Shown here piece by piece: positions 5,319 through 20,338 of a DNA stretch of 41,067 bases (position 1 is its first letter; each line of letters opens with the position of its first letter). The DNA is taken from positions 1 through 41,067 of the forward strand of contig JAUSBQ010000332.1 in assembly GCA_030651965.1 (NCBI GenBank), given 5' to 3'. Under the pieces are notes generated by a model. That model had not been told where the DNA came from. It saw only the letters and a list, made by a program, of their open reading frames with translations, and made no database searches. Made by a program: the position numbers and the translations under genes. The stretch is from Pseudolabrys sp. Its GTDB lineage: Bacteria > Pseudomonadota > Alphaproteobacteria > Rhizobiales > Xanthobacteraceae.

Positions 5319-7304
5319 ATGAAGGACGGGCAAGCGCAGGGCCGTGAGATCGACCTGATCGCGCGCGTGCGCGCCGCCGCGCGCCAGGAGCAGTTCCTCG
5401 ATGTCGTGTCGGCGGAAGAAGCGCGTGAGCGTTTCGAGAGGCATCTCGATCTGTCGCCGCTTCCGGCGGAGAAGGTGGCGCTGGCCGATGCGCTGACGCG
5501 CGTGCTCGCGCATGACATCATTGCCGCCGTCGATGCGCCGCCGTTTGACCGTTCCAATGTCGATGGCTTCGCGCTGCGCGCCGTCGATACGTTGGGCGCC
5601 ACCAACGCTTCGCCGAAAATCCTGCGGCTCAATGCGGAAGTGATCGCCTGCGGCGACGACCCGGCGCTGGAAATCGCGCCCGGCACCGCCACCACCATCG
5701 CCACCGGCGGCGTGATCCCGCGCGGTGCCGACGCGGTGATCATGGTCGAGCAGACCGAGTTGATCGGGCAAGGCGAGCCGTACATCGAAGTGCAGCGCGC
5801 CGCCACGCCCGGCCAGTTCGTTTCCTACGCCGGCTCCGACATTGCGCGCGGCGAAACCTTGCTGCGGCGCGGCGTGCGCATCGGCTCGCGCGAGATCGGC
5901 ATGCTGGCGGCCTGCGGACTGGCCTTCGCCGATGTCGTGCGCCGGCCGAAGGTTGCGGTGCTATCGACCGGCGACGAACTGGTCCCGCTCGGCCAACCGC
6001 TCAAGCCGGCCGGAATTTATGACAGCAACGGCGCGATCATCGCCGCCGCGGTCGCGGAGGCCGGCGGCGTCGCGCTGCCGATGGGCGCCATTCCCGACGA
6101 TGCCGCGGCGCTCGATAAAGCCGTGCGCGAGGCGCTGTCGCAAAGCGACATGGTCGTCCTGTCGGCCGGCACCTCGAAAGGCGCCGGCGATCTGTCGCAT
6201 GCGATTGTTTCGAGACTGGGCGCACCGGGCATTCTGGTGCACGGCGTGGCGCTCAAGCCGGGCAAGCCGCTATGCCTCGGCGTCATCGGCAAGACGCCGA
6301 TCGCGGTGCTGCCCGGCTTTCCGACCTCGGCGATCTTCACCTTTCACGCTTTCATCGCACCGGTCATTCGCGCGCTGGCGGGGCTGCCGCCGGAAGCGGC
6401 GCAGACCATCCAGGCGCGCGTCCCGGTGCGGGTCGCGTCCGAACTCGGCCGCAAGGAATTCGTACTGGTGTCGCTGATCGACACTGAGGACGGCCCGGTC
6501 GCCTTTCCGACCGGCAAGGGCTCCGGCTCGGTCACCAGTTTCTCGCAAGCCGACGGCTTTATCGAGATCGACGCGCTGGCAAGCTCGCTCGACACCAACA
6601 CCATCACACAGGTAACGCTGATCGGCAGCAGTGCCCGCGCTCCCGATCTGGTGATCATGGGCAGCCATGACGTCGCGCTCGACGTGATGGTCGGCGCGCT
6701 CGCCGACCGCGGCTTCTCCGCGCGCACGCTGGCGGTCGGCAGTCTCGGCGGCGTGGCGGCGGCGAGCCGCGGCGAATGCGACATCGCGCCGGTGCATCTG
6801 ATCGATCCTGCGAGCGACGACTACAACAAGCATTTGGTGACGCCGGCGCTGTCACTTGTGGCGGGGTGGCGGCGCATGCAGGGCGTCTTGTTCCGTACTG
6901 GTGATGCGCGCTTTGAGGGCAAGAGCGCGGCCGAGGCGATCAAGGCTGCATTGGCAGATTCCGCCGCGCTGATGGTCAACCGCAATGCCGGCGCCGGCAC
7001 CCGTGTCCTGATCGATACGTTGCTCAACGGTGCGCGGCCGCCTGGCTACGCCAATCAGCCGAAGTCGCACAACGCGGTCGCCGCCAGCATCGCGCAGGGC
7101 CGCGCAGACTGGGGCGTCGCCATCGAGCCGGTGGCGAAGCTCTACGGTCTCGGCTTCCTCCCGGTGGCGCCGGAGCATTACGATTTTCTGGTGGTGGAGA
7201 GCCGGCGCGACCGGCCGGCGGTGCGCGCCTTTCTCGCGGCGCTGCGCGACGAGGCGACACGGTCGCGCATTGCGGCGCTCGGCATGGTTCCAGCCGATGG
7301 GTAG
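5319..7304 (+). CDS. moeA: molybdopterin molybdotransferase MoeA fused to a periplasmic-binding-protein-like domain
   Basis: A 661-residue two-part protein. Residues about 20-435 are MoeA, the enzyme that inserts molybdate into adenylated molybdopterin. Visible motifs are FDRSNVDGFALRA, ATGGVIPRGADAVIMVE, VLSTGDELVPLG, VLSAGTSKGAGD and AVLPGFPTSA. Residues about 440-655 form a PBP-like substrate-binding domain, recognisable from ALMVNRNAGAGTRVLID and ADWGVAIEPVAKLYGLGF. There is no signal peptide, so both halves are cytoplasmic; the second half may bind molybdate or a molybdopterin species. This fusion architecture is known in bacteria and archaea. The stop codon overlaps the start of the WD40-cytochrome gene by 8 nt. 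It probably serves the formate dehydrogenase encoded about 10 kb downstream. Confidence 0.93.
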   Translation: MKDGQAQGREIDLIARVRAAARQEQFLDVVSAEEARERFERHLDLSPLPAEKVALADALTRVLAHDIIAAVDAPPFDRSNVDGFALRAVDTLGATNASPKILRLNAEVIACGDDPALEIAPGTATTIATGGVIPRGADAVIMVEQTELIGQGEPYIEVQRAATPGQFVSYAGSDIARGETLLRRGVRIGSREIGMLAACGLAFADVVRRPKVAVLSTGDELVPLGQPLKPAGIYDSNGAIIAAAVAEAGGVALPMGAIPDDAAALDKAVREALSQSDMVVLSAGTSKGAGDLSHAIVSRLGAPGILVHGVALKPGKPLCLGVIGKTPIAVLPGFPTSAIFTFHAFIAPVIRALAGLPPEAAQTIQARVPVRVASELGRKEFVLVSLIDTEDGPVAFPTGKGSGSVTSFSQADGFIEIDALASSLDTNTITQVTLIGSSARAPDLVIMGSHDVALDVMVGALADRGFSARTLAVGSLGGVAAASRGECDIAPVHLIDPASDDYNKHLVTPALSLVAGWRRMQGVLFRTGDARFEGKSAAEAIKAALADSAALMVNRNAGAGTRVLIDTLLNGARPPGYANQPKSHNAVAASIAQGRADWGVAIEPVAKLYGLGFLPVAPEHYDFLVVESRRDRPAVRAFLAALRDEATRSRIAALGMVPADG

Positions 7305-12156: not shown

Positions 12157-13160
12157 AAGATTTCTGGATATCCTGCGGCCATCATCTGCTCGACCGCGAT
12201 CAAGGCGGCGGCCTTTTGCTGACCGACGACTTTCTGAAAGTCTATCTGGCGCGGCCCGAATTGATCCCGCCGCCGGAGGCCTGCGTGGTGGAGAAGACGC
12301 TCCATGGCGCGCTGTTCGCAAATCCACGTCTGGCCATATCGGCAGCGGACATTGCCGCCATTGCCGATGCCGACGCGCGGGAGAACTGGCAGGTTCTCAT
12401 TGCATTCCGCGATCTGCTGTTGCGGCACAAAACGCTGGAAGGCGCCTATGCCGAGTTGATGCGCGACGGCCCCGGAAAAACGCCGCTGCTGTTCGTCAAT
12501 CAGCTGGTTCATGTGATCCTGCGCAACGCGCTCGACGGCGTCGAGGATGCGCAGGTGGCGCGCGCGGGCGAACTGTTTTTCCGCACCCAGCGCGTCACCT
12601 TGCATGAAGGGTCGCTGCTGGCCGCCGACGACGAGATCATCGGCGGCATCAATCCCGCGCCGCAATCGCCGCTGGTGTCGATGCTGGGCATCCCGGCGGA
12701 CGCCCATATCCATGTCCTCAAGGAAGACAACGCTTCCGGCTACTGGGAGCGCAGCGACCAGTTCGATATGGCCATCGATCTGACCGCGGGGCGTTCCGGA
12801 CTTGTGGCGCTTGCCGAAGCGATGCGGCGCTGGATCGTTCACGTGCTCGGCGTGGATGTGACGATCGAGCCGCTCACCGAACTGCGCGAGGTCAATCTGG
12901 CCTGGTATGTCGGCCTCGACGCCGACGCCACCAAGATCGGCGACATGATGTGGAACGGCGAGGAGATCGATGCGGCGACGATGTCGCGCGTCGTCGGACT
13001 GTTCGCGCTGACTTTCCGCGATCCCTCGGTGGTGCTCGACAGGGTCAAGGGCGAGCCGGTCTATCTGATCCTGGCGATGTCACCGGAAAAAACCATCCGC
13101 ATGAAGCCGCAGAATCTGGCGACCGGCTTGCCGATCCGCCATCTGGAGGCGGTCGGATGA
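12153..13160 (+). CDS. DUF6352 family protein
   Basis: A 335-residue protein beginning MKDFWISCGHHLLDRDQGG, the opening typical of the DUF6352 family as I remember it. The N-terminal third carries conserved H/D/R residues (CGHHLLDRD) that could bind metal or a cofactor. The C-terminal half looks like a globular alpha/beta domain, with no signal peptide or membrane span. It overlaps both neighbours by 4 nt (ATGA at 12153 and 13157), so its amount is tied to theirs. No biochemical role is known to me; a cytoplasmic assembly factor for the molybdenum enzyme is the contextual guess. Confidence 0.72.
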   Translation: MKDFWISCGHHLLDRDQGGGLLLTDDFLKVYLARPELIPPPEACVVEKTLHGALFANPRLAISAADIAAIADADARENWQVLIAFRDLLLRHKTLEGAYAELMRDGPGKTPLLFVNQLVHVILRNALDGVEDAQVARAGELFFRTQRVTLHEGSLLAADDEIIGGINPAPQSPLVSMLGIPADAHIHVLKEDNASGYWERSDQFDMAIDLTAGRSGLVALAEAMRRWIVHVLGVDVTIEPLTELREVNLAWYVGLDADATKIGDMMWNGEEIDAATMSRVVGLFALTFRDPSVVLDRVKGEPVYLILAMSPEKTIRMKPQNLATGLPIRHLEAVG

Positions 13161-13669
13161 GCGCGCCGCATCTCAGCATCCCGGTCGGCGTTCTCGTTGA
13201 ACGCAGCAAGGGTACGACCCCATGGGCCGAATTCTACTGGCGCGCCACCGGTGTTCTGGCTGGCCAGCCGGACACGCCGGCCTGGACGATACTCAGCGAC
13301 GACGGTCAGCGCGTGACCTTCTATGCCGGAACGGCGGATGTCGTATTGCACCACACCGAGACCGGATTTTATCGCGACAATCTGAATTCCGGCGCGCCTG
13401 CGCTGTGGGTCGCGCTGCGCGCCACGGATGGCGAGCCGCCGTTCACGATCGCCGCGGTCACCGCGGATCCGGCGGAGGGCGAAAGCTTCACCGAGGCGGG
13501 AACCGATCTGGTCGAGCAGGTGCCGATGCCGCTGTCGATTCAGCAAGTGCTCGCCGCTTTCGTGGCCGAACATCATGTTGAGCGGCCGTTCTTCAAACGC
13601 AAGCGCGACCGCGCCGACCCTGAAGCCATGGCGCGGCGCGGCCGGACTTCCGGAGACGATCTCGAATGA
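13157..13669 (+). CDS. DUF3305 family protein
   Basis: A 170-residue protein matching DUF3305: it begins with LSIPVGVLVERSKGTTPWAE, then the aromatic FYWRATGVL, and later GFYRDNLNSGAPALWVALR. The C-terminus is highly basic (FFKRKRDRADPEAMARRGR). No catalytic motif is visible. DUF3305 and DUF3306 genes are usually adjacent in proteobacterial formate dehydrogenase clusters, as here, and probably work as a pair. The ATGA overlap with the next gene (13666) supports equal production of the two. Confidence 0.78.
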   Translation: MSAPHLSIPVGVLVERSKGTTPWAEFYWRATGVLAGQPDTPAWTILSDDGQRVTFYAGTADVVLHHTETGFYRDNLNSGAPALWVALRATDGEPPFTIAAVTADPAEGESFTEAGTDLVEQVPMPLSIQQVLAAFVAEHHVERPFFKRKRDRADPEAMARRGRTSGDDLE

Positions 13670-14361
13670 GCGAGCCGGAAAATTTCTTGACGCGATGGTC
13701 GCGCCGCAAGCTCGACGCCGAGGAGCAGGCCGCGCCGGCGGCCGCTGAGATCGCGCCGCAAGAGCCGGCGGAGGATGCGGAGGGCGCGGCGGGCGTGGAG
13801 AGCCGCAGCGTTCCGGATAGTACGGCAGTTCAGGCGCCCGCATTCGATCCCGCCAGCCTGCCGTCGCTCGATTCGATCGGCGCGGAAACCGACATCTCCG
13901 CCTTTCTGAAAGCGGGCGTTCCCGGCGACCTGCGGCTCGCGGCACTTCGTCGCGCATGGGTGGCCGATCCGGCGATTCGAGATTTCAAAGGCCTGGCGGA
14001 GAACGATTGGGACTTCACTATTCCCAACGAGACGATGGGTTTTGGCGAAATCGATCCCGGCCTCGACATGAAAAAAATGTTGGCTGACGTTTTCGGCGAC
14101 ACGCCGCGCGTAGAGCCGGCCGCAGCCGAATTGCCGCCCGCAACCGAGCAACCCACGCCAGCACCGCGCGAATTGAGTGCGCCGGCGAATCGTATAGCGC
14201 TGAATTCGAGCGAAGTTCCTTCGCATGATGAAAATATTGCCACCGATGAAGAGATTGTGCATCGCACTAATGATGCTGCGCCGCACGCTGACGACGATGA
14301 TGGGCAGGACATTTCGCCCAACAAACAAAAACGTCGTCAGGGCGGCGCGCTGCCACAATAA
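13666..14361 (+). CDS. DUF3306 family protein
   Basis: A 231-residue protein matching DUF3306. It starts MSEPENFLTRWSRRKLDAEEQ, followed by an Ala/Glu/Pro-rich linker. The conserved core (about residues 60-130) includes LPSLDSIGAETDISAFLKAGVP, LRLAALRRAWVADPAIRDF and ENDWDFTIP. The C-terminal third is low-complexity and ends basic (KQKRRQGGALPQ). The tail is probably disordered, so the core likely docks on a partner. It is the last of the five overlapping accessory genes; an 81-bp gap with a palindrome follows. Confidence 0.78.
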   Translation: MSEPENFLTRWSRRKLDAEEQAAPAAAEIAPQEPAEDAEGAAGVESRSVPDSTAVQAPAFDPASLPSLDSIGAETDISAFLKAGVPGDLRLAALRRAWVADPAIRDFKGLAENDWDFTIPNETMGFGEIDPGLDMKKMLADVFGDTPRVEPAAAELPPATEQPTPAPRELSAPANRIALNSSEVPSHDENIATDEEIVHRTNDAAPHADDDDGQDISPNKQKRRQGGALPQ

Positions 14362-14371
14362 TAGGCGAACT

Positions 14372-14386
14372 ATAGCCTCAGGCTAT
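14372..14386. promoter_or_regulatory. 15-bp palindrome, candidate operator of the HTH-TorD gene
   Basis: ATAGCCT-C-AGGCTAT is a perfect 7-bp inverted repeat around one central base. It touches TTGACC (14386-14391), which with TACCCT (14410-14415, 18-bp spacing) forms a candidate promoter for the gene at 14443. Since that gene's product carries an HTH domain, autoregulation is plausible. Confidence 0.45.
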
Positions 14387-14442
14387 TGACCGGCGCGCGC
14401 GTACCGCACTACCCTTACATTGTAACTATTTGAAAGAACGCG

Positions 14443-15219
14443 ATGCGCGACTCCGGTCTCGATCAAGCTATTCGCGTTGCCGGCAGCGTCAGCGAGCTCG
14501 CGCGCCAGCTCGGGATTTCGCAACCATCAGTTTCAAATTGGACCCGTGTTCCGGCGGAGCGCGTGACGTCGGTCGAGAGCCTGACCGGCATCAATCGCGT
14601 TGTGCTGCGGCCGGATCTGTTCGGCGAGGCAAGAATGACCGGCGAAGTCGATGAGATCGATGCGGCGCGCGCGCAGGAATATGCGCTGCTCGCGGCGTTG
14701 CTCATGCGCGCGCCGGACGCTGCCTTGCTCAAGCGCCTCGCGGGGCTGCGCGGCGATAGCAGCCCGCTCGGGATGGCCCACATTGCACTGGCGGAAGCGG
14801 CCAGCCGCGCGACCATCGAACAAGTCGAGCGCGAATTTTTCGATCTCTTCATTGGCGTTGGCCGCGGCGAACTGATGCCTTACGGGTCCTACTATCTCAC
14901 CGGGTTCCTGCACGAGCGCCCGCTGGCGCGGTTGCGCGACGACCTCGGCAAACTCGGCATCGAACGCGTCGAGGGCAATGTCGAGCCGGAAGATCATGCC
15001 GCAACTTTATGCGAAATCATGGCCGGGCTGATTGGCGGCCAGTTCGACGGGCGTCCCGGCAGCGATCAGGAAATATTCGAGAAGCATATGGTGTCGTGGA
15101 TGGGCCGCTTCTTCAGAGACATCGAAATGGCGGAAGCCGCGAATTTCTATCGTCCGGTCGGAACGATCGGGCGCCTGCTGATGGACATCGAGACGGAAGC
15201 TTTCGCGCTGAATGCGTAA
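14443..15219 (+). CDS. fusion of a Cro/YdaS-like HTH domain with a TorD-family chaperone
   Basis: A 258-residue protein. Residues about 5-65 are a small helix-turn-helix domain of the Cro/YdaS type (DQAIRVAGSVSELARQLGISQPSVSNWTR in two stretches, then PAERV and INRVVLRPDLF). Residues about 75-245 form an all-helical TorD/DmsD-type chaperone, shown by EREFFDLFIGVGRGELMPYGSYYLTGFL and FEKHMVSWMGRFFRDIE. TorD-family chaperones hold the Tat signal and guide molybdenum-cofactor insertion before export. Here the same chain could also bind DNA, linking folding state of the enzyme to transcription. It precedes the small Tat protein and the catalytic subunit gene on the same strand by 54 bp, and follows a 15-bp palindrome. 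Confidence 0.88.
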   Translation: MRDSGLDQAIRVAGSVSELARQLGISQPSVSNWTRVPAERVTSVESLTGINRVVLRPDLFGEARMTGEVDEIDAARAQEYALLAALLMRAPDAALLKRLAGLRGDSSPLGMAHIALAEAASRATIEQVEREFFDLFIGVGRGELMPYGSYYLTGFLHERPLARLRDDLGKLGIERVEGNVEPEDHAATLCEIMAGLIGGQFDGRPGSDQEIFEKHMVSWMGRFFRDIEMAEAANFYRPVGTIGRLLMDIETEAFALNA

Positions 15220-15273: not shown

Positions 15274-15483
15274 ATGAAGTCGGAACCCAAATCCAAACTA
15301 GGACGGCGTGATTTCCTGCGCGCGCTCGGCGCCGGCGCAGGTGTCGCCGTCGCAACGGCCGCGCCGCTTGCCGCTCCGGCCATGGCGGACACCGAGAACA
15401 ACGATGAAAAGCGCAAGGCGCGCTACAAAGCGGATTCTGCCAGCGTGCAGACCTACTATCGCGTCAACCGTTTTCCGAGCTGA
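15274..15483 (+). CDS. small Tat-signal protein of the formate dehydrogenase operon, 69 aa
   Basis: A 69-residue protein whose first ~38 residues are a twin-arginine signal (LGRRDFLRALGAG, then a hydrophobic stretch and APAMA). This leaves only about 30 mature residues, basic and ending SVQTYYRVNRFPS. AAGGAGG lies seven bases before the ATG at 15274, which is why the upstream ATG at 15247 is not used. It lies 13 bp before the catalytic subunit gene. Such tiny Tat proteins recur ahead of formate dehydrogenase alpha genes. A structural subunit carried through the Tat pore, or a decoy that occupies the chaperone, are both possible. Confidence 0.8.
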   Translation: MKSEPKSKLGRRDFLRALGAGAGVAVATAAPLAAPAMADTENNDEKRKARYKADSASVQTYYRVNRFPS

Positions 15484-15496
15484 GGGAGGCTAGACC

Positions 15497-18445
15497 GTGT
15501 TAACAAAAAGATCAGAACGACAGGCACGTCGCGGCAGTCTCGCAGCCGCAATCGGCAGCCAGGAAACGGGCGGGTTCGACCGCCGAACCTTCCTGCGCAG
15601 ATCGGGACTTGTGGCCGGTGGCCTCGCAGCGCTTGGCGCGTTGCCGTTGGCCAGCGTCCGCAAGGCGGAAGCGGCAGGCCCGGCGGTCGCCGGCGCCACC
15701 ATCCGCAAGAACATCTGCACGCACTGTTCGGTGGGCTGCACCTTGATCGCCGAAGTGTCGAACGGTGTCTGGATCGGGCAGGAGCCCGGCTGGGATTCGC
15801 CGATCAATCGCGGCTCGCATTGCGCCAAGGGCGCGGCGACACGCGAACTGGTGCATGGCGATCGCCGCCTGCGCTATCCGATGAAGCTGGTGAACGGTCA
15901 GTGGACGCGGATTTCCTGGGATGTCGCGATCAACGAGATCGGCTACAAGATGATGGAGATCAGGGCCAAATCTGGCGCCGATTCCGTCTATCACCTCGGT
16001 TCGGCCAAGTTCACCAACGAAGGCGCCTTCCTGTTCCGCAAGTTCGCGGCCTTCTGGGGCACGAATAGCGTCGATCATCAGGCGCGCATCTGCCATTCAA
16101 CCACGGTCGCAGGTGTTGCCAATACCTGGGGCTACGGCGCGCAGACCAATAGCTACACCGACATCCGTAACTCAAAAACGATCCTCTTCATCGGCAGCAA
16201 TGCCGCGGAAGCGCATCCGGTGTCGCTCCAGCACATCCTGGAGGGCAAGGAATCCAACCGCGCGAACATGATCGTCATGGATCCGCGCATGACGCGCACC
16301 GCGGCCCATGCCACCGAGTATGTCCGCATCCGCTCCGGTACCGACATTCCGGTGATCTGGGGCATGTTGCACCACATCTTCAAGAATGGCTGGGAAGACA
16401 AGCAGTTCATTGAACAGCGCGTTTACGGCATGGATGACATCCGCAAGGAAGTCGAGAAGTGGACGCCCGAGGAAGTCGAACGCGTGACCGGCGTGCCGGG
16501 TGCGCAACTCGAACGCGTCGCCAAGATGTTCGCGACGCAAAAGCCCTCGACCTTGATCTGGTGCATGGGCTCGACTCAGCACACGGTCGGCACCGCCAAC
16601 GTGCGCGCGTTCTGCATCGCCTTGCTGGCCACCGGCAATGTCGGCGGCCCCGGCAGGGGGGCCAACATCTTCCGCGGCCATACCAACGTGCAGGGCGCCA
16701 CCGATCTCGGCGTCGATATCGCGACGCTGCCGCTCTATTACGGCCTGGTCGAAGGTGCGTGGCGGCATTGGTCGCGCGTCTGGGAAGTCGACTACAACTA
16801 TTTTGCCGACCGCTTCGACAAGACCACCGCGGCCGATGGCAAAGTCACCAGTACGATGAACACGCCCGGCATTCCGTCGACCCGCTGGTTCGATGCCACG
16901 CTCCTCGACAAGAAGGAGATCAGGCAGAAGGACAATATCAAGGCAATGTTCGTCATGGGTCACGGCGGCAACACCGTGACGCGCGTGCCGCAGGCGCAGA
17001 AGGGCGTCGAGAAGCTCGAATTGCTGGTCGTGTGCGATCCGCATCCGACCACCTGGGCTTCGATGGCCCCCGGACGCAAGAACGGCACTTATCTGTTGCC
17101 GATCGCCACCAGCTACGAAACCAACGGCTCGCGGACGGCGTCCAACCGCGCGCTGCAGTGGGGCGAGCAGATCGTCAAGCCGATTTTCGAATCGAAGGAC
17201 GATCTTGAGGTCATGTACCTGCTGGCCAAGAAGCTCGGTTTTGCCGATCTGATGTTCAAGAACATCAAGGTCGAGAACAATCTGCCGGTACCCGAGGACA
17301 TTCTCCGCGAGATCAACCGCGGCGGTTTCTCGACCGGCTACTGCGGACAGTCGCCCGAGCGGTTGAAGTCTCATATGGCCAATCAAAAAGACTTCGACAT
17401 GCGCACGCAACGTGCCGACGCAGGGCCGAACAAAGGCGACTATTACGGCCTGCCGTGGCCGTGCTGGGGTACGCCTGAGTTCAAGCACCCCGGTACGCCG
17501 CTGCTTTACAACACCAACCTCTCGGTCAAAGAAGGCGGCGGCACTTTCCGCCCGCGCTTCGGTCTGGAGCGTGAGGAAACGCTGCCGGACGGCACCAAGC
17601 GCAAAGTCAGCCTGCTCGGCAACGGCTATTACTCCAAGGACTCCGAGATCAAGGACGGCTACCCGGAGTTCACTTTGGGTGTCCTCAAGAAGCTCGGTTG
17701 GGACAAGGACCTGACCGAAGCCGAAATGGCGGTGATCAACAAGATCAACCCAACCACGCCGGATGTTGTCTCCTGGGCGATCGATCTGTCCGGCGGCATC
17801 CAGCGTGTTGCCATCGAACACGGCTGCACCCCCTACGGTAACGGCAAGGCGCGCGCCAATGCGTTCGGCTTGCCGGATCCGATCCCGGTGCACCGCGAAC
17901 CGATCTACACGCCGCGGCCTGACCTCGTCGCCAAGTATCCGACGCTGCCGAATGCGGTGCAGTTCCGGGTGCCGAACATCGGCTTTGACGTTCAAAAGGC
18001 CGCGGTCGACAAGGGCATTGCCAAGCAGTTCCCGCTTATCCTCACCTCCGGCCGCTTGGTTGAATACGAAGGCGGCGGCGAAGAGACCCGCTCGAACAAG
18101 TGGCTGGCCGAACTCCAGCAGGACATGTTCGTCGAGATCAATCCTGCCGATGCCGCCGAACGCGGCATCAAGGACGGCGGATGGGTCTGGGTGACCGGCG
18201 CGGAGAACAACTCCAAAGCCAAGATGAAGGCGCTCGTTACCGAACGTGTTGGCAAGGGCGTGACCTGGAGTCCGTTCCACTTTGGCGGCTGGTTCGAAGG
18301 CGTCGATCAACGCGCCAACTATCCAAAGGGCACCGATCCGATCGTGTTGGGCGAGAGTGTGAACTCTCTCACGACCTACGGCTTCGATCCGGTGACCGGC
18401 ATGCATGAACCCAAGGCCACCCTCTGTCAGGTCAGAGCGGCTTAA
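15497..18445 (+). CDS. fdhA: formate dehydrogenase, catalytic alpha subunit (molybdopterin-dependent)
   Basis: A 982-residue enzyme that oxidises formate to CO2 using a bis-molybdopterin guanine dinucleotide centre. A Tat signal (DRRTFLRRSGLVAGG, about residues 28-55) sends it folded to the periplasm. C74-x2-C77-x3-C81-x27-C109 holds a [4Fe-4S] cluster. C199-H200 in ARICHSTTVAG is the metal-ligand position, so this enzyme uses cysteine rather than selenocysteine. The length matches FdnG/FdhA-type respiratory enzymes (about 980-1015). It starts at a GTG with GGGAGG eight bases upstream. The iron-sulfur and cytochrome b genes follow within 13 and 84 bp, giving a membrane-linked complex that feeds electrons to quinone. 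A tungsten cofactor cannot be excluded. Confidence 0.96.
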   Translation: MLTKRSERQARRGSLAAAIGSQETGGFDRRTFLRRSGLVAGGLAALGALPLASVRKAEAAGPAVAGATIRKNICTHCSVGCTLIAEVSNGVWIGQEPGWDSPINRGSHCAKGAATRELVHGDRRLRYPMKLVNGQWTRISWDVAINEIGYKMMEIRAKSGADSVYHLGSAKFTNEGAFLFRKFAAFWGTNSVDHQARICHSTTVAGVANTWGYGAQTNSYTDIRNSKTILFIGSNAAEAHPVSLQHILEGKESNRANMIVMDPRMTRTAAHATEYVRIRSGTDIPVIWGMLHHIFKNGWEDKQFIEQRVYGMDDIRKEVEKWTPEEVERVTGVPGAQLERVAKMFATQKPSTLIWCMGSTQHTVGTANVRAFCIALLATGNVGGPGRGANIFRGHTNVQGATDLGVDIATLPLYYGLVEGAWRHWSRVWEVDYNYFADRFDKTTAADGKVTSTMNTPGIPSTRWFDATLLDKKEIRQKDNIKAMFVMGHGGNTVTRVPQAQKGVEKLELLVVCDPHPTTWASMAPGRKNGTYLLPIATSYETNGSRTASNRALQWGEQIVKPIFESKDDLEVMYLLAKKLGFADLMFKNIKVENNLPVPEDILREINRGGFSTGYCGQSPERLKSHMANQKDFDMRTQRADAGPNKGDYYGLPWPCWGTPEFKHPGTPLLYNTNLSVKEGGGTFRPRFGLEREETLPDGTKRKVSLLGNGYYSKDSEIKDGYPEFTLGVLKKLGWDKDLTEAEMAVINKINPTTPDVVSWAIDLSGGIQRVAIEHGCTPYGNGKARANAFGLPDPIPVHREPIYTPRPDLVAKYPTLPNAVQFRVPNIGFDVQKAAVDKGIAKQFPLILTSGRLVEYEGGGEETRSNKWLAELQQDMFVEINPADAAERGIKDGGWVWVTGAENNSKAKMKALVTERVGKGVTWSPFHFGGWFEGVDQRANYPKGTDPIVLGESVNSLTTYGFDPVTGMHEPKATLCQVRAA

Positions 18446-18458
18446 AGGAGCAACGATC

Positions 18459-19055
18459 ATGGCACGTATGAAATTCCTCTGCGACGCCGACCGTTGCATC
18501 GAATGCAACGCTTGCGTCACCGCCTGCAAGAACGAACACGAGGTGCCGTGGGGCATCAACCGCCGGCGCGTCGTCACCATCAATGACGGCAAGCCGGGCG
18601 AACGGTCGGTCTCCATGGCCTGCATGCACTGCACCGACGCGCCTTGTGCGGCGGTCTGCCCGGTGGATTGTTTCTACACCACGGCCGATGCGGTGGTGTT
18701 GCACTCCAAGGACCTGTGCATCGGCTGCGGCTATTGCTTCTACGCCTGTCCGTTTGGCGCGCCGCAATATCCCAAAGTCGGCAACTTCGGTTCGCGCGGC
18801 AAGATGGACAAATGCACGTTCTGCGCCGGCGGCCCGGAAGCCGACGGCAGCAAGGCGGAGTACGAAAAGTACGGCGCCAACCGGCTGGCCGAAGGCAAGC
18901 TGCCGCTGTGCGCCGAAATGTGCTCGACCAAGTCGTTGCTCGCCGGCGACGGCGACGTGATTGCCCAGATCTATAAGGAACGCGTGTCCCGGCGTGGCTA
19001 CGGCTCCGGCGCCTGGGGCTGGCAGACGGCCTACCGCGAAGCGATCGCGACCTGA
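18459..19055 (+). CDS. fdhB: formate dehydrogenase, iron-sulfur beta subunit
   Basis: A 198-residue electron-transfer subunit with four [4Fe-4S] motifs: C13-IECNAC-VTAC23, CMHCTDAPCAAVCP, CIGCGYCFYACP, and CTFCAGG paired with the later CAEMC. It moves electrons from the catalytic subunit to the cytochrome b. Unlike Escherichia coli FdnH (about 290 residues) it has no C-terminal membrane anchor, so it resembles the shorter Wolinella-type FdhB. It has no signal peptide and would be exported together with the folded alpha subunit. AAAGGAG lies nine bases before the ATG. Confidence 0.95.
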   Translation: MARMKFLCDADRCIECNACVTACKNEHEVPWGINRRRVVTINDGKPGERSVSMACMHCTDAPCAAVCPVDCFYTTADAVVLHSKDLCIGCGYCFYACPFGAPQYPKVGNFGSRGKMDKCTFCAGGPEADGSKAEYEKYGANRLAEGKLPLCAEMCSTKSLLAGDGDVIAQIYKERVSRRGYGSGAWGWQTAYREAIAT

Positions 19056-19139
19056 ACGGCGGCGTGGAAACTCCGCGCCGCCGGTTTCGACAACAAGAAA
19101 TTGAGAAGACACCGAGAAGACAAAAGGGAGGGGATGCCA

Positions 19140-20177
19140 ATGTTCGGCATTTTGGCGAAACTCTTGATGCAGGTTCGCTTCGTCGCCGGCGCTCTCGCGC
19201 TCGCTTTGGTTATCGCCGTCGCCGCGCCCGCCTCGGCGCAACAGCCGTCTTCGGTCAATCCGACGGCCAGCGCGGTCCAGGAGCGACAGCTTCTCCAGGA
19301 GCTCAACCGGATTCAGGGCCGTGTCACCATCCCCGATAAAAAGTCCGATGTGCTGGAACAGCCGGCTGGCCGCGAGTGGCGGCAGTGGCACCAGGTGACG
19401 CTGCGCTGGATCGGCGCCATCGCCATTCTCGGTATGCTGGCGCTGCTGGTTGTGTTTTATCTGGCGCGCGGACAGGTCAAACTGCAAAGCGGGTTCTCGG
19501 GCCGCAAGATCGTGCGCTTCAACGGGGTCGAACGCTTCGTGCATTGGCTGACGGCGACGTGCTTCCTGGTGCTTGCGATCTCCGGGCTTAACGTCACCTT
19601 CGGCAAGGCGCTGCTGCTGCCTCTGATCGGGCCGTCGGCCTTCTCGATATGGTCGGAGTTGGCAAAATATTCGCACAACTTCCTGAGCTTCCCGTTCACC
19701 ATCGGCGTGATTCTGATTTTCCTGATGTGGATCGGCAGCAATATCCCGAACAGGAATGACGTCGAGTGGGTCAAGCGCGGCGGCGGCATTATCGGCAACG
19801 ACCATCCACCGGCCGAACACTTCAACGCCGGCCAGAAGATGATCTATTGGATCGTTGTGCTCGGCGGCGGCGCCTCGGCGGTCACCGGTTATCTGCTGCT
19901 GTTCCCGTTCTACGGCACCGAGATTTCGGGCATGCAGCTTGCCCAGATCGTCCATTCCGTCGTGGCGGTATTGTTCATCGCCGCCATGCTGGGGCACATC
20001 TACATCGGCACCATCGGCATGCAAGGCGCCTTTGAGGCGATGGGCGAAGGCACCGTCGACGTCAATTGGGCCAAGGAACACCACAGCCTTTGGCTGGAGC
20101 AAGAAAAGGCGCGGGCCGGTGCAACCGGTGCGACCGATGCCCAACGCAGGGCGACGGCGGCAGGCCCCGCGGAATAA
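19140..20177 (+). CDS. fdhC: formate dehydrogenase, cytochrome b gamma subunit
   Basis: A 345-residue membrane subunit that carries haem b and reduces quinone. Likely haem ligands are the histidines in GVERFVHWLT, AKYSHNFLSF and QIVHSVVAVLFIAAMLGH. An N-terminal signal-like segment (about residues 10-35, ending APASAQQ) and a periplasmic stretch of some 60 residues precede the four core spans, plus one extra span near residues 92-114 (IGAIAILGMLALLVVFYLA). The family in E. coli is about 215 residues, so this is the longer alphaproteobacterial form. The ATG at 19140 is preferred because GGGAGGGG lies six bases upstream, whereas the ATG at 19134 abuts it. The C-terminal tail is Ala-rich. A strong terminator follows 24 bp later. 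Confidence 0.94.
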   Translation: MFGILAKLLMQVRFVAGALALALVIAVAAPASAQQPSSVNPTASAVQERQLLQELNRIQGRVTIPDKKSDVLEQPAGREWRQWHQVTLRWIGAIAILGMLALLVVFYLARGQVKLQSGFSGRKIVRFNGVERFVHWLTATCFLVLAISGLNVTFGKALLLPLIGPSAFSIWSELAKYSHNFLSFPFTIGVILIFLMWIGSNIPNRNDVEWVKRGGGIIGNDHPPAEHFNAGQKMIYWIVVLGGGASAVTGYLLLFPFYGTEISGMQLAQIVHSVVAVLFIAAMLGHIYIGTIGMQGAFEAMGEGTVDVNWAKEHHSLWLEQEKARAGATGATDAQRRATAAGPAE

Positions 20178-20200
20178 CCGAATCTGCCGGAAATGATGAA

Positions 20201-20232
20201 AGCGCCCGGCTTGGAAAGCCGGGCGCTTTTTT
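20201..20232 (+). terminator. intrinsic terminator of the formate dehydrogenase operon
   Basis: A perfect 12-bp stem, AGCGCCCGGCTT (20201-20212) with AAGCCGGGCGCT (20216-20227), closes on a GGA loop and is followed by T residues to 20232. This is a textbook Rho-independent terminator just after the cytochrome b gene. Confidence 0.93.
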
Positions 20233-20338
20233 CATTTCTTTGAGCGTTTTAAGCGTTCGCCATCAACCGGGCGGCTACGCGACCCCTCGGCAGCAGGCTC
20301 CACGTCGCCGCGAGGGGTGACGACCGGCCTTGTGCCGT

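Follow-up and report, generated by a model that had tools for sequence, protein, structure and literature searches.

A TorD-type chaperone with a Cro-type DNA-binding head and its predicted operator in a formate dehydrogenase operon of Pseudolabrys and other Rhizobiales

BirA is a bifunctional maturation enzyme and repressor with an N-terminal helix-turn-helix (HTH) domain. Among the maturation chaperones TorD, DmsD and NarJ (redox enzyme maturation proteins, REMPs), genes of the TorD and DmsD types are known from formate dehydrogenase (fdh) operons, where they are accompanied by DUF3305 and DUF3306 genes (PMC4464133); no HTH, DNA binding or fusion is mentioned in the available main text of that paper, nor is a helix-turn-helix or DNA binding mentioned in the available part of PMC10609526. 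The phage proteins of the Cro/YdaS type are known as DNA-binding proteins, and according to the accessible sections of PMC8630535 YdaS of CP-933P protects the two promoters of its region in footprints, represses its own, and is to be regarded as a Cro analogue and not as a toxin-antitoxin partner, despite the Pfam name YdaS_toxin. Moreover, a correlation between Cro recognition helices and their half-sites was reported by Hall, Lefevre and Cordes in 2005, as cited in the available text of PMC4997575. Here we describe a gene in a 41,067-nucleotide stretch of DNA from Pseudolabrys sp. (contig JAUSBQ010000332.1; the whole stretch is called the window below), which encodes a Cro/YdaS-type HTH joined to a TorD-type chaperone and is preceded by a 15-bp palindrome, its candidate operator.

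The locus combines parts of these systems. It shares with the TorD-fdh subgroup of the REMPs the same C-terminal domain and an operon with DUF3305, DUF3306, a small twin-arginine translocation (Tat) protein and fdh genes; unlike the REMPs as described in the available text of PMC4464133, the chaperone here has a DNA-binding head and a predicted operator. With the phage proteins (Xfaso1 Cro, structure 3bd1; P22 Cro; CP-933P YdaS) it has in common the fold and sequence of the HTH, a dyad that overlaps a promoter, and helix residues tracking the half-site bases; unlike them, it is fused to a chaperone in an fdh operon and usually faces one operator instead of a phage switch region. The likeness to BirA would lie in a maturation factor whose N-terminal HTH could make transcription respond to the amount of unmodified client, whereas the domains are unrelated and an effect of the client is suggested here by analogy only. 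No description of an HTH-TorD or HTH-MobB fusion was found in the literature searched, the coverage of which leaves out most subscription journals. On comparative sequence evidence we are very confident that the operon is controlled by the HTH bound to this dyad, which would make the protein a Cro-type autoregulator built into a molybdoenzyme chaperone. The features concerned are as follows.

14372-14386, no strand assigned: predicted operator dyad ATAGCCT-C-AGGCTAT, of the class ATAG-N7-CTAT; a perfect palindrome, conserved in fusion loci.
14386-14391, plus strand: -35 box TTGACC, with one base in common with the dyad; from the sequence and from relatives with the same offset.
14410-14415, plus strand: -10 box TACCCT after an 18-bp spacer; from the sequence, conserved in close relatives.
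14443-15219, plus strand: HTH-TorD fusion protein of 258 amino acid residues; from open reading frame translation, Pfam, AlphaFold2 and Foldseek.
14443-14628, plus strand: Cro/YdaS-type HTH domain, residues 1-62; PF15943 and PF14549, and 3bd1 Cro by sequence and fold.
14521-14541, plus strand: recognition helix region QPSVSNW, residues 27-33, with the codon of Ser29 at 14527-14529 and that of Asn32 at 14536-14538; location of the two top residue-base pairs.
14647-15216, plus strand: TorD/NarJ-type chaperone domain, residues 69-258, with EPEDH at 181-185; PF02613 and a DmsD/YcdY fold match.

Both halves of the protein belong to known families. The head matches Pfam YdaS_toxin (PF15943) over residues 6-62 with an E value of 2.2e-15 and 56.6 bits against a cut-off of 30, which places it among the Cro/YdaS HTH domains, and P22_Cro (PF14549) over residues 8-48 (E 2.3e-7). 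The body matches Nitrate_red_del (PF02613) over residues 106-224 (E 1.4e-26; 93.6 bits against a curated cut-off of 22.2) and is thereby a member of the TorD/NarJ family, whereas the equivalog models of TorD and DmsD stay below their cut-offs for the fusion protein (40 and 34.9 bits against 132 and 162, respectively). The positions of EPEDH, which we take to represent the TorD hallmark EPxDH, are invariant or nearly so in the alignment. In an AlphaFold2 model built with 33 sequences the mean pLDDT (predicted local distance difference test) is 84.1, with residues 63-67 and 139-156 under 50. In the Foldseek comparison the head is superposed on Xfaso1 Cro 3bd1 with a root-mean-square deviation of 1.2 at 46% identity (E 0.03), and the same relation is found by sequence (E 5e-8) and as a profile (E 1.6e-13). 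The body, with low confidence at 139-156, has the all-helical DmsD/TorD fold, DmsD and YcdY being matched with E values of 1.6e-4 to 6e-4 (top entries 3efp, 9m26 and 3cw0, E 1.6e-4 to 4.8e-4), and NarJ is a weaker match with E 0.01 or more. The initial annotation, made from the letters alone, had claimed just such a joining of a Cro/YdaS-type HTH to a TorD-type chaperone, and Pfam, 3bd1 and the DmsD/YcdY fold confirm it. From its family and its operon, the C-terminal domain presumably handles the twin-arginine precursor or precursors of the downstream formate dehydrogenase.

The dyad at 14372-14386 sits between the DUF3306 gene and the fusion gene, and the 15-bp palindrome touching a TTGACC -35 box is found exactly as it had been annotated. 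A dyad search of the window with at most 3 mismatches gave four matches against 0.31 expected. Two of them are 14372-14386 itself, read on either strand (with 0 and 1 mismatch), and the others lie at two further places, each with 3 mismatches; the sequence ATAGCCTNAGGCTAT occurs in a single place of the 4.66-Mb genome. The TTGACC/TACCCT pair is not among the calls of a generic promoter scan of the window, and the promoter is accepted because it is conserved in relatives.

In order to follow the dyad across species, the exact form was defined as ATAG-N7-CTAT and the loose form as ATAR-N7-YTAT; the scan of named genomes took the best 80 of 104 relatives, and more loci came from further searches. 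Of the 84 distinct fusion loci in the first set, 73 have the exact dyad no more than 200 nt from the start codon, while there are four exact hits in the 772,504 bp elsewhere in the same loci; each of the other spacings from 0 to 20 is found in only 0 to 5 loci, and shuffled leaders gave a mean of 0.07 loci with an exact dyad and a maximum of 1. A search across the order then covered 397 genomes, 134 of which had a match at 1e-8, with about 40 fusions in seven family codes. Of these, 33 of the about 40 fusions and 27 of the about 90 HTH-less loci were analysed: ATAR-N7-YTAT is present in all 33 fusions (27 ATAG/CTAT and 6 ATAA/TTAT), and the exact dyad within 250 nt in none of the 27 HTH-less loci. 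For the pooled counts, 22 loci with a protein identical to another and L094, which has only 33 nt upstream, were left out; L292 and L293 appear to repeat L068 and L025, and L294, a fusion from outside the order with one exact and one mixed dyad, stands outside the counts. The pooled and deduplicated set of 113 fusion loci has, within 250 nt, 97 exact dyads (L024, which has both the exact and the A/A form, being counted as exact), 11 of the form ATAA-N7-TTAT, 2 mixed and 3 without any, so that the loose dyad is present in 110 of 113. By comparison, the exact dyad occurs in none of 41 TorD loci without the HTH, and the loosest pattern in three of them (L107, L240 and L256). The check proposed with the initial annotation, whether homologous fusions conserve the dyad, therefore came out in its favour, and the comparative evidence points to the palindrome at 14372-14386 as the operator of the fusion protein.

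Furthermore, the bases of the dyad vary together with residues of the HTH. A weighted covariation scan paired 62 HTH residues with 10 base positions, and among the 620 pairs residue 29 with half-site base 4 ranks first (normalised mutual information 0.442), followed by residue 32 with base 5 (0.175). The helix bearing residues 29 and 32 contacts bases in Cro-type proteins. All 11 proteins with A/A dyads have QPA(V/I)S in the recognition helix, and the corresponding residue is Ser or Thr in those with G/G dyads; base 4 is A for each of the 12 Ala29 proteins, for one of them in one half only, and the Ser29 or Thr29 proteins face G, with two doubtful cases. Reduced to 29 representatives below 70% identity, the set holds 24 with Ser or Thr and G/G and five with Ala and A/A, without exception (L024 entered as G/G), and none of 300 permutations reached the observed value. 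A tree of the chaperone domain alone, made by a quick maximum-likelihood search, implies five replacements of Ser29 by Ala, and every one of them shares its branch with a change of the half-site; a sixth half-site change is that of L045. When the changes were placed at random 20,000 times with weighting by branch length, the maximum was four coincidences, reached once, and none reached five. L088, whose protein is about 90% identical to that of the window, has Ala29 together with a half-changed dyad, ATAACCTCCGGCTAT. For residue 32 the raw counts are Asn32 facing C in 68 of 84 half-sites, Ala32 facing G in 59 of 72 and Gly32 facing G in 14 of 14, and the pair with base 5 is weak in the tree-based pair test. 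This covariation suggests that the HTH itself reads the dyad, and recognition of a dyad operator through the recognition helix, as predicted from these sequences, is strongly supported.

Several observations weigh against this picture. Three fusion loci (L033, L102 and L081) have an intact-looking HTH and no dyad, L081 carrying ATAGCTCGCGACTGT, which is one core base off, and L024 has an exact G/G dyad plus an A/A match that is better paired. L045 combines Ser29 with one A half-site. In the independent-pairs sign test, the strongly supported branches provide two pairs only, with which significance is unreachable, and the null model of random placement ignores mutation bias. The 41 TorD loci without the HTH indicate that chaperoning does not need it. 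In addition, an HTH-MobB fusion described further below shares the recognition helix, yet ATAR-N7-YTAT is found in none of its eight loci (about 12 kb each).

The genes around the fusion gene form an operon-like series, in which the following features were assigned.

13157-13669, plus strand: DUF3305 gene (PF11749); start codon by eye.
13666-14361, plus strand: DUF3306 gene (PF11748), directly upstream of the fusion gene.
15274-15483, plus strand: small Tat-signal protein of the formate dehydrogenase region (TIGR02811, 44.1 bits, just under the cut-off of 48.45); start codon by eye.
15497-18445, plus strand: FdhA, catalytic subunit of formate dehydrogenase, with the Tat-like motif RRTFLR; named from context, as the FDH3 beta and gamma subunits follow.
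18459-19055, plus strand: FdhB, FDH3 beta subunit (NF038355, E 2.4e-102); start codon by eye.
19101-20177, plus strand: FdhC, cytochrome b subunit (TIGR01583, E 2.3e-50).
20190-20238, plus strand: terminator-like hairpin after fdhC, with 15 pairs and a T-rich tail.

This arrangement is shared by the relatives: where the flank suffices, DUF3306 lies within 500 nt upstream in 79 of 81 fusion loci and a relative of FdhA within 1.5 kb downstream in 68 of 69, and the small Tat protein follows in 67 of 80. Elsewhere in the window, 5319-7304 encodes a MoeA-like protein with a C-terminal extension that by eye resembles a substrate-binding domain, and its homologs adjoin HTH-MobB in some other genomes.

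In the mechanism we propose, the fusion protein would be both a Tat/molybdoenzyme chaperone and a transcription regulator specific to its operon. The Cro-like HTH, probably as a dimer, would read ATAG-N7-CTAT, which borders the -35 box of the gene's own promoter on the upstream side, and by binding there would control HTH-TorD, the small Tat protein and fdhABC; the share of chaperone occupied by unassembled FdhA would alter the amount free for DNA, whereby transcription might track the demand for assembly. We consider it highly probable that the fusion acts as a DNA-bound autoregulator with coupling to the client as the likely purpose, whereas the single step in which client occupancy modulates DNA binding, a titration like that of BirA and the likeliest reason for the fusion, is by itself given just short of an even chance.

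Different owners of the dyad have to be weighed against the HTH. That the palindrome is a chance or RNA-level feature such as a leader hairpin, with the HTH as a relic, would agree with the three of 113 fusions that have no dyad, and is nevertheless next to negligible, since the exact spacing is kept across families and symmetric changes on both sides follow the recognition helix; besides, the dyad lies upstream of the -10 box of the called promoter, so that it is probably not transcribed. More has to be said about FdsR, a regulator of the LysR type that responds to formate and acts on the soluble, NAD-dependent formate dehydrogenase. The dyad could be its T-N11-A box; FdsR would then run the two formate dehydrogenases, and the dyad would have nothing to do with the chaperone's HTH. 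We take ATAG-N7-CTAT to be a legitimate LysR box of this kind. In 29 of the 30 own-genus genomes examined, some of them without HTH-TorD, it precedes fdsR by no more than 200 nt, between fdsR and fdsG (the latter named by eye), and the dyad is present at fdsR even in G015, a 100% complete genome without any HTH match at 1e-5; moreover, FdsR of Cupriavidus is formate-inducible according to the available part of PMC7057948. However, the order sample has 33 fusion genomes, and in 26 of them there is no FdsR ortholog of at least 60% identity: nothing matches at 1e-40 in 18, and the other 8 contain no more than LysR relatives at 39-50% identity. The dyad is nonetheless retained in every one of the 26, as ATAG in 20 and as ATAA in 6. 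In the other direction, the exact dyad is found in none of 13 HTH-less TorD loci from genomes with FdsR, L240 having a loose match at the start of the reading frame, and the core is in none of 34 FdsR loci with upstream DNA out of 35 at 63-71% identity (at least one genome being counted twice). The fds sites also differ in flanks and centre, being of the type TTGATAG-aaaa-CTATCAA, the covariation of the HTH is left unexplained by FdsR, and at 1e-60 nothing in the genome from which the window comes (90% complete) matches FdsR. The presence of the dyad at fdh does not follow that of FdsR, and presence and absence in both directions rule it out as owner of the fdh dyad; a role of FdsR there appears highly improbable. 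The likeness is confined to the ATAG-N7-CTAT core of the promoter region in the own genus, while protein family and flanks differ and FdsR is not needed for the HTH-TorD dyad. It is probable that the own-genus fds sites are a separate element of the FdsR type with the core of HTH-TorD. Such sites, with flanks of the TTGATAG...CTATCAA type, lie upstream of fdsR at L137 1501-1515 and in L142-L171, and in G011 an ATAG-N7-CTAT dyad precedes a second fdsG-like gene by about 80 bp.

With the HTH as reader of the dyad, the sign of control and the part played by the client remain to be weighed. The initial annotation had supposed that the chaperone may also be a repressor; conservation and covariation support the operator and the autoregulation of the operon, and repression in particular is a possibility beside activation, the position of the dyad suiting an activator as well. 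The feedback from unassembled formate dehydrogenase, which the initial annotation had also proposed, would be a further and conjectural step. If transcription starts about 7 bp after the -10 box, the centre of the dyad in the window is near -43, a position that would suit a repressor covering the -35 region as well as an activator acting like lambda CI at OR2 for PRM. Sigma70-like promoters (TTGNC-N16-19-TAnnnT after the dyad) were called in 40 of the 110 dyad loci. The -35 box begins at the last base of the dyad, as in the window, in 28 of these 40, lies 7-10 bp after it in 11 and 15 bp after it in one. The shift between the two main classes is about one helical turn, as expected for contact with RNA polymerase, and mildly favours such contact. 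An activator, raising expression when the chaperone is free or when it is client-bound, is accordingly conceivable and is given somewhat over a third of our belief, whereas against it stand the small share of loci with a call, at least one wrong call (L006, placed in the 7-10 bp class, is a miscall and fits the first), and the Bradyrhizobium/Afipia group, in which almost no clear promoter was called. Because the nearest tested relative, CP-933P YdaS, represses its own promoter (PMC8630535, in the part available), we lean to repression, to which we give rather better than even odds. It could also be that the HTH regulates the level of the chaperone only, as in simple Cro-type homeostasis, and that client binding has no effect. 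This fits the same comparative evidence and the low-confidence linker at residues 63-67 of the model, and is a tentative reading to which we give clearly less than half of our belief; the several fusion forms of a Cro-type HTH with maturation factors of molybdenum enzymes speak circumstantially for a gain from physical coupling.

Other possible targets of the regulator were also considered. A large regulon was rejected, as the counts of ATAGCYNNNRGCTAT in 10 genomes and of ATAGCNNNNNGCTAT in 7 and 8 genomes are of the same order as those of reversed-pattern controls, and the only site common to all eight genomes of the eight-genome ATAGCNNNNNGCTAT scan is the HTH-TorD leader. Upstream of tupBCA, which encodes a tungstate transporter, 28 own-genus loci have 300 nt or more of sequence, and the exact dyad is present within 600 nt in four of them (G032, G489, G002 and G024). 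G033, whose HTH-TorD has Ala29, carries ATAACCTTTGGCTAT upstream of tup, a dyad half-changed in the same way as that of its fdh leader. This is suggestive of the tupBCA upstream region as a weak second target; if these dyads are true targets, tungstate uptake would be tied to the same regulator in some species. Dyads of this class upstream of tupB are found in L346, L347, L350, L371 and L345, and in G030 a dyad was seen by eye at a contig end, in apparently the same region as in G002, and was not counted. In G008, ATAGCCTTTGGCTAT at L132 1501-1515 lies about 150 bp upstream of a gene like that of a hydrogenase small subunit (by eye), and L102, the HTH-TorD leader of the same genome, is without a dyad. 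Downstream of the operator, many Bradyrhizobium/Afipia loci among L031-L066, for example L054, have another dyad (TGGAATAATTCCA, CTAGAACAGTTCTAG). It resembles an Irr iron-control element, and the fdh operon may also be iron-responsive.

The HTH is not confined to TorD. Seven own-genus genomes in which the HTH alone gave a match have the same HTH joined to MobB, a GTPase of the molybdopterin guanine dinucleotide cofactor, and in G033 this fusion is found together with HTH-TorD; two of these eight loci were scanned with Pfam. These loci are L112-L119; in L113 the gene at 5467-6360 on the minus strand stands beside tup, fdhD, mobA and moeA, the neighbours being named by eye. In eight HTH-MobB regions of 19.5 kb, ATAG-N7-CTAT occurs in G032 only, before tup, and no operator for HTH-MobB was found in them. 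Moreover, TorD is joined to another subtype of YdaS in G598, G659, G736 and G861 (L295, L297, L298 and L299; Pfam on two of the four), and G659, G736 and G861 (L297-L299) have in common an upstream dyad-like ACAAA-N4-TTTGT, seen by eye. The different subtype and its different dyad suggest that HTH-TorD fusions probably arose more than once. L296 contains, on the minus strand in a frame of 588 residues, a YdaS-type HTH fused to NAD(P)H-hydrate epimerase/dehydratase (YjeF_N and Carb_kinase). We tentatively suppose, as a possibility with distinctly less than an even chance, that Cro-type heads have repeatedly been fused to maturation factors of molybdenum and tungsten enzymes (TorD, with at least two HTH subtypes, and MobB) as maturation-sensing transcription factors, and that the free or client-loaded chaperone directly sets transcription of the fdh operon and, in some species, of tup as well. 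If this is true, the loop would be closed from the unassembled enzyme to the genes.

In plasmid records three of the fusions are annotated only as 'molecular chaperone TorD family protein', so that the regulator is easily overlooked, and the HTH gene with the toxin name of Pfam sits in an fdh operon. How cells adjust the synthesis of complex molybdenum and tungsten enzymes to the supply of cofactor and to Tat export is a general question. Where the chaperone doubles as the DNA-binding regulator of its own operon, a direct test would need no more than a single protein, a 15-bp site and a signal peptide, and the rule linking Ser29 or Ala29 to G or A offers a built-in control of specificity. An HTH on the chaperone of formate dehydrogenase could let the assembly of the enzyme report back to its genes.
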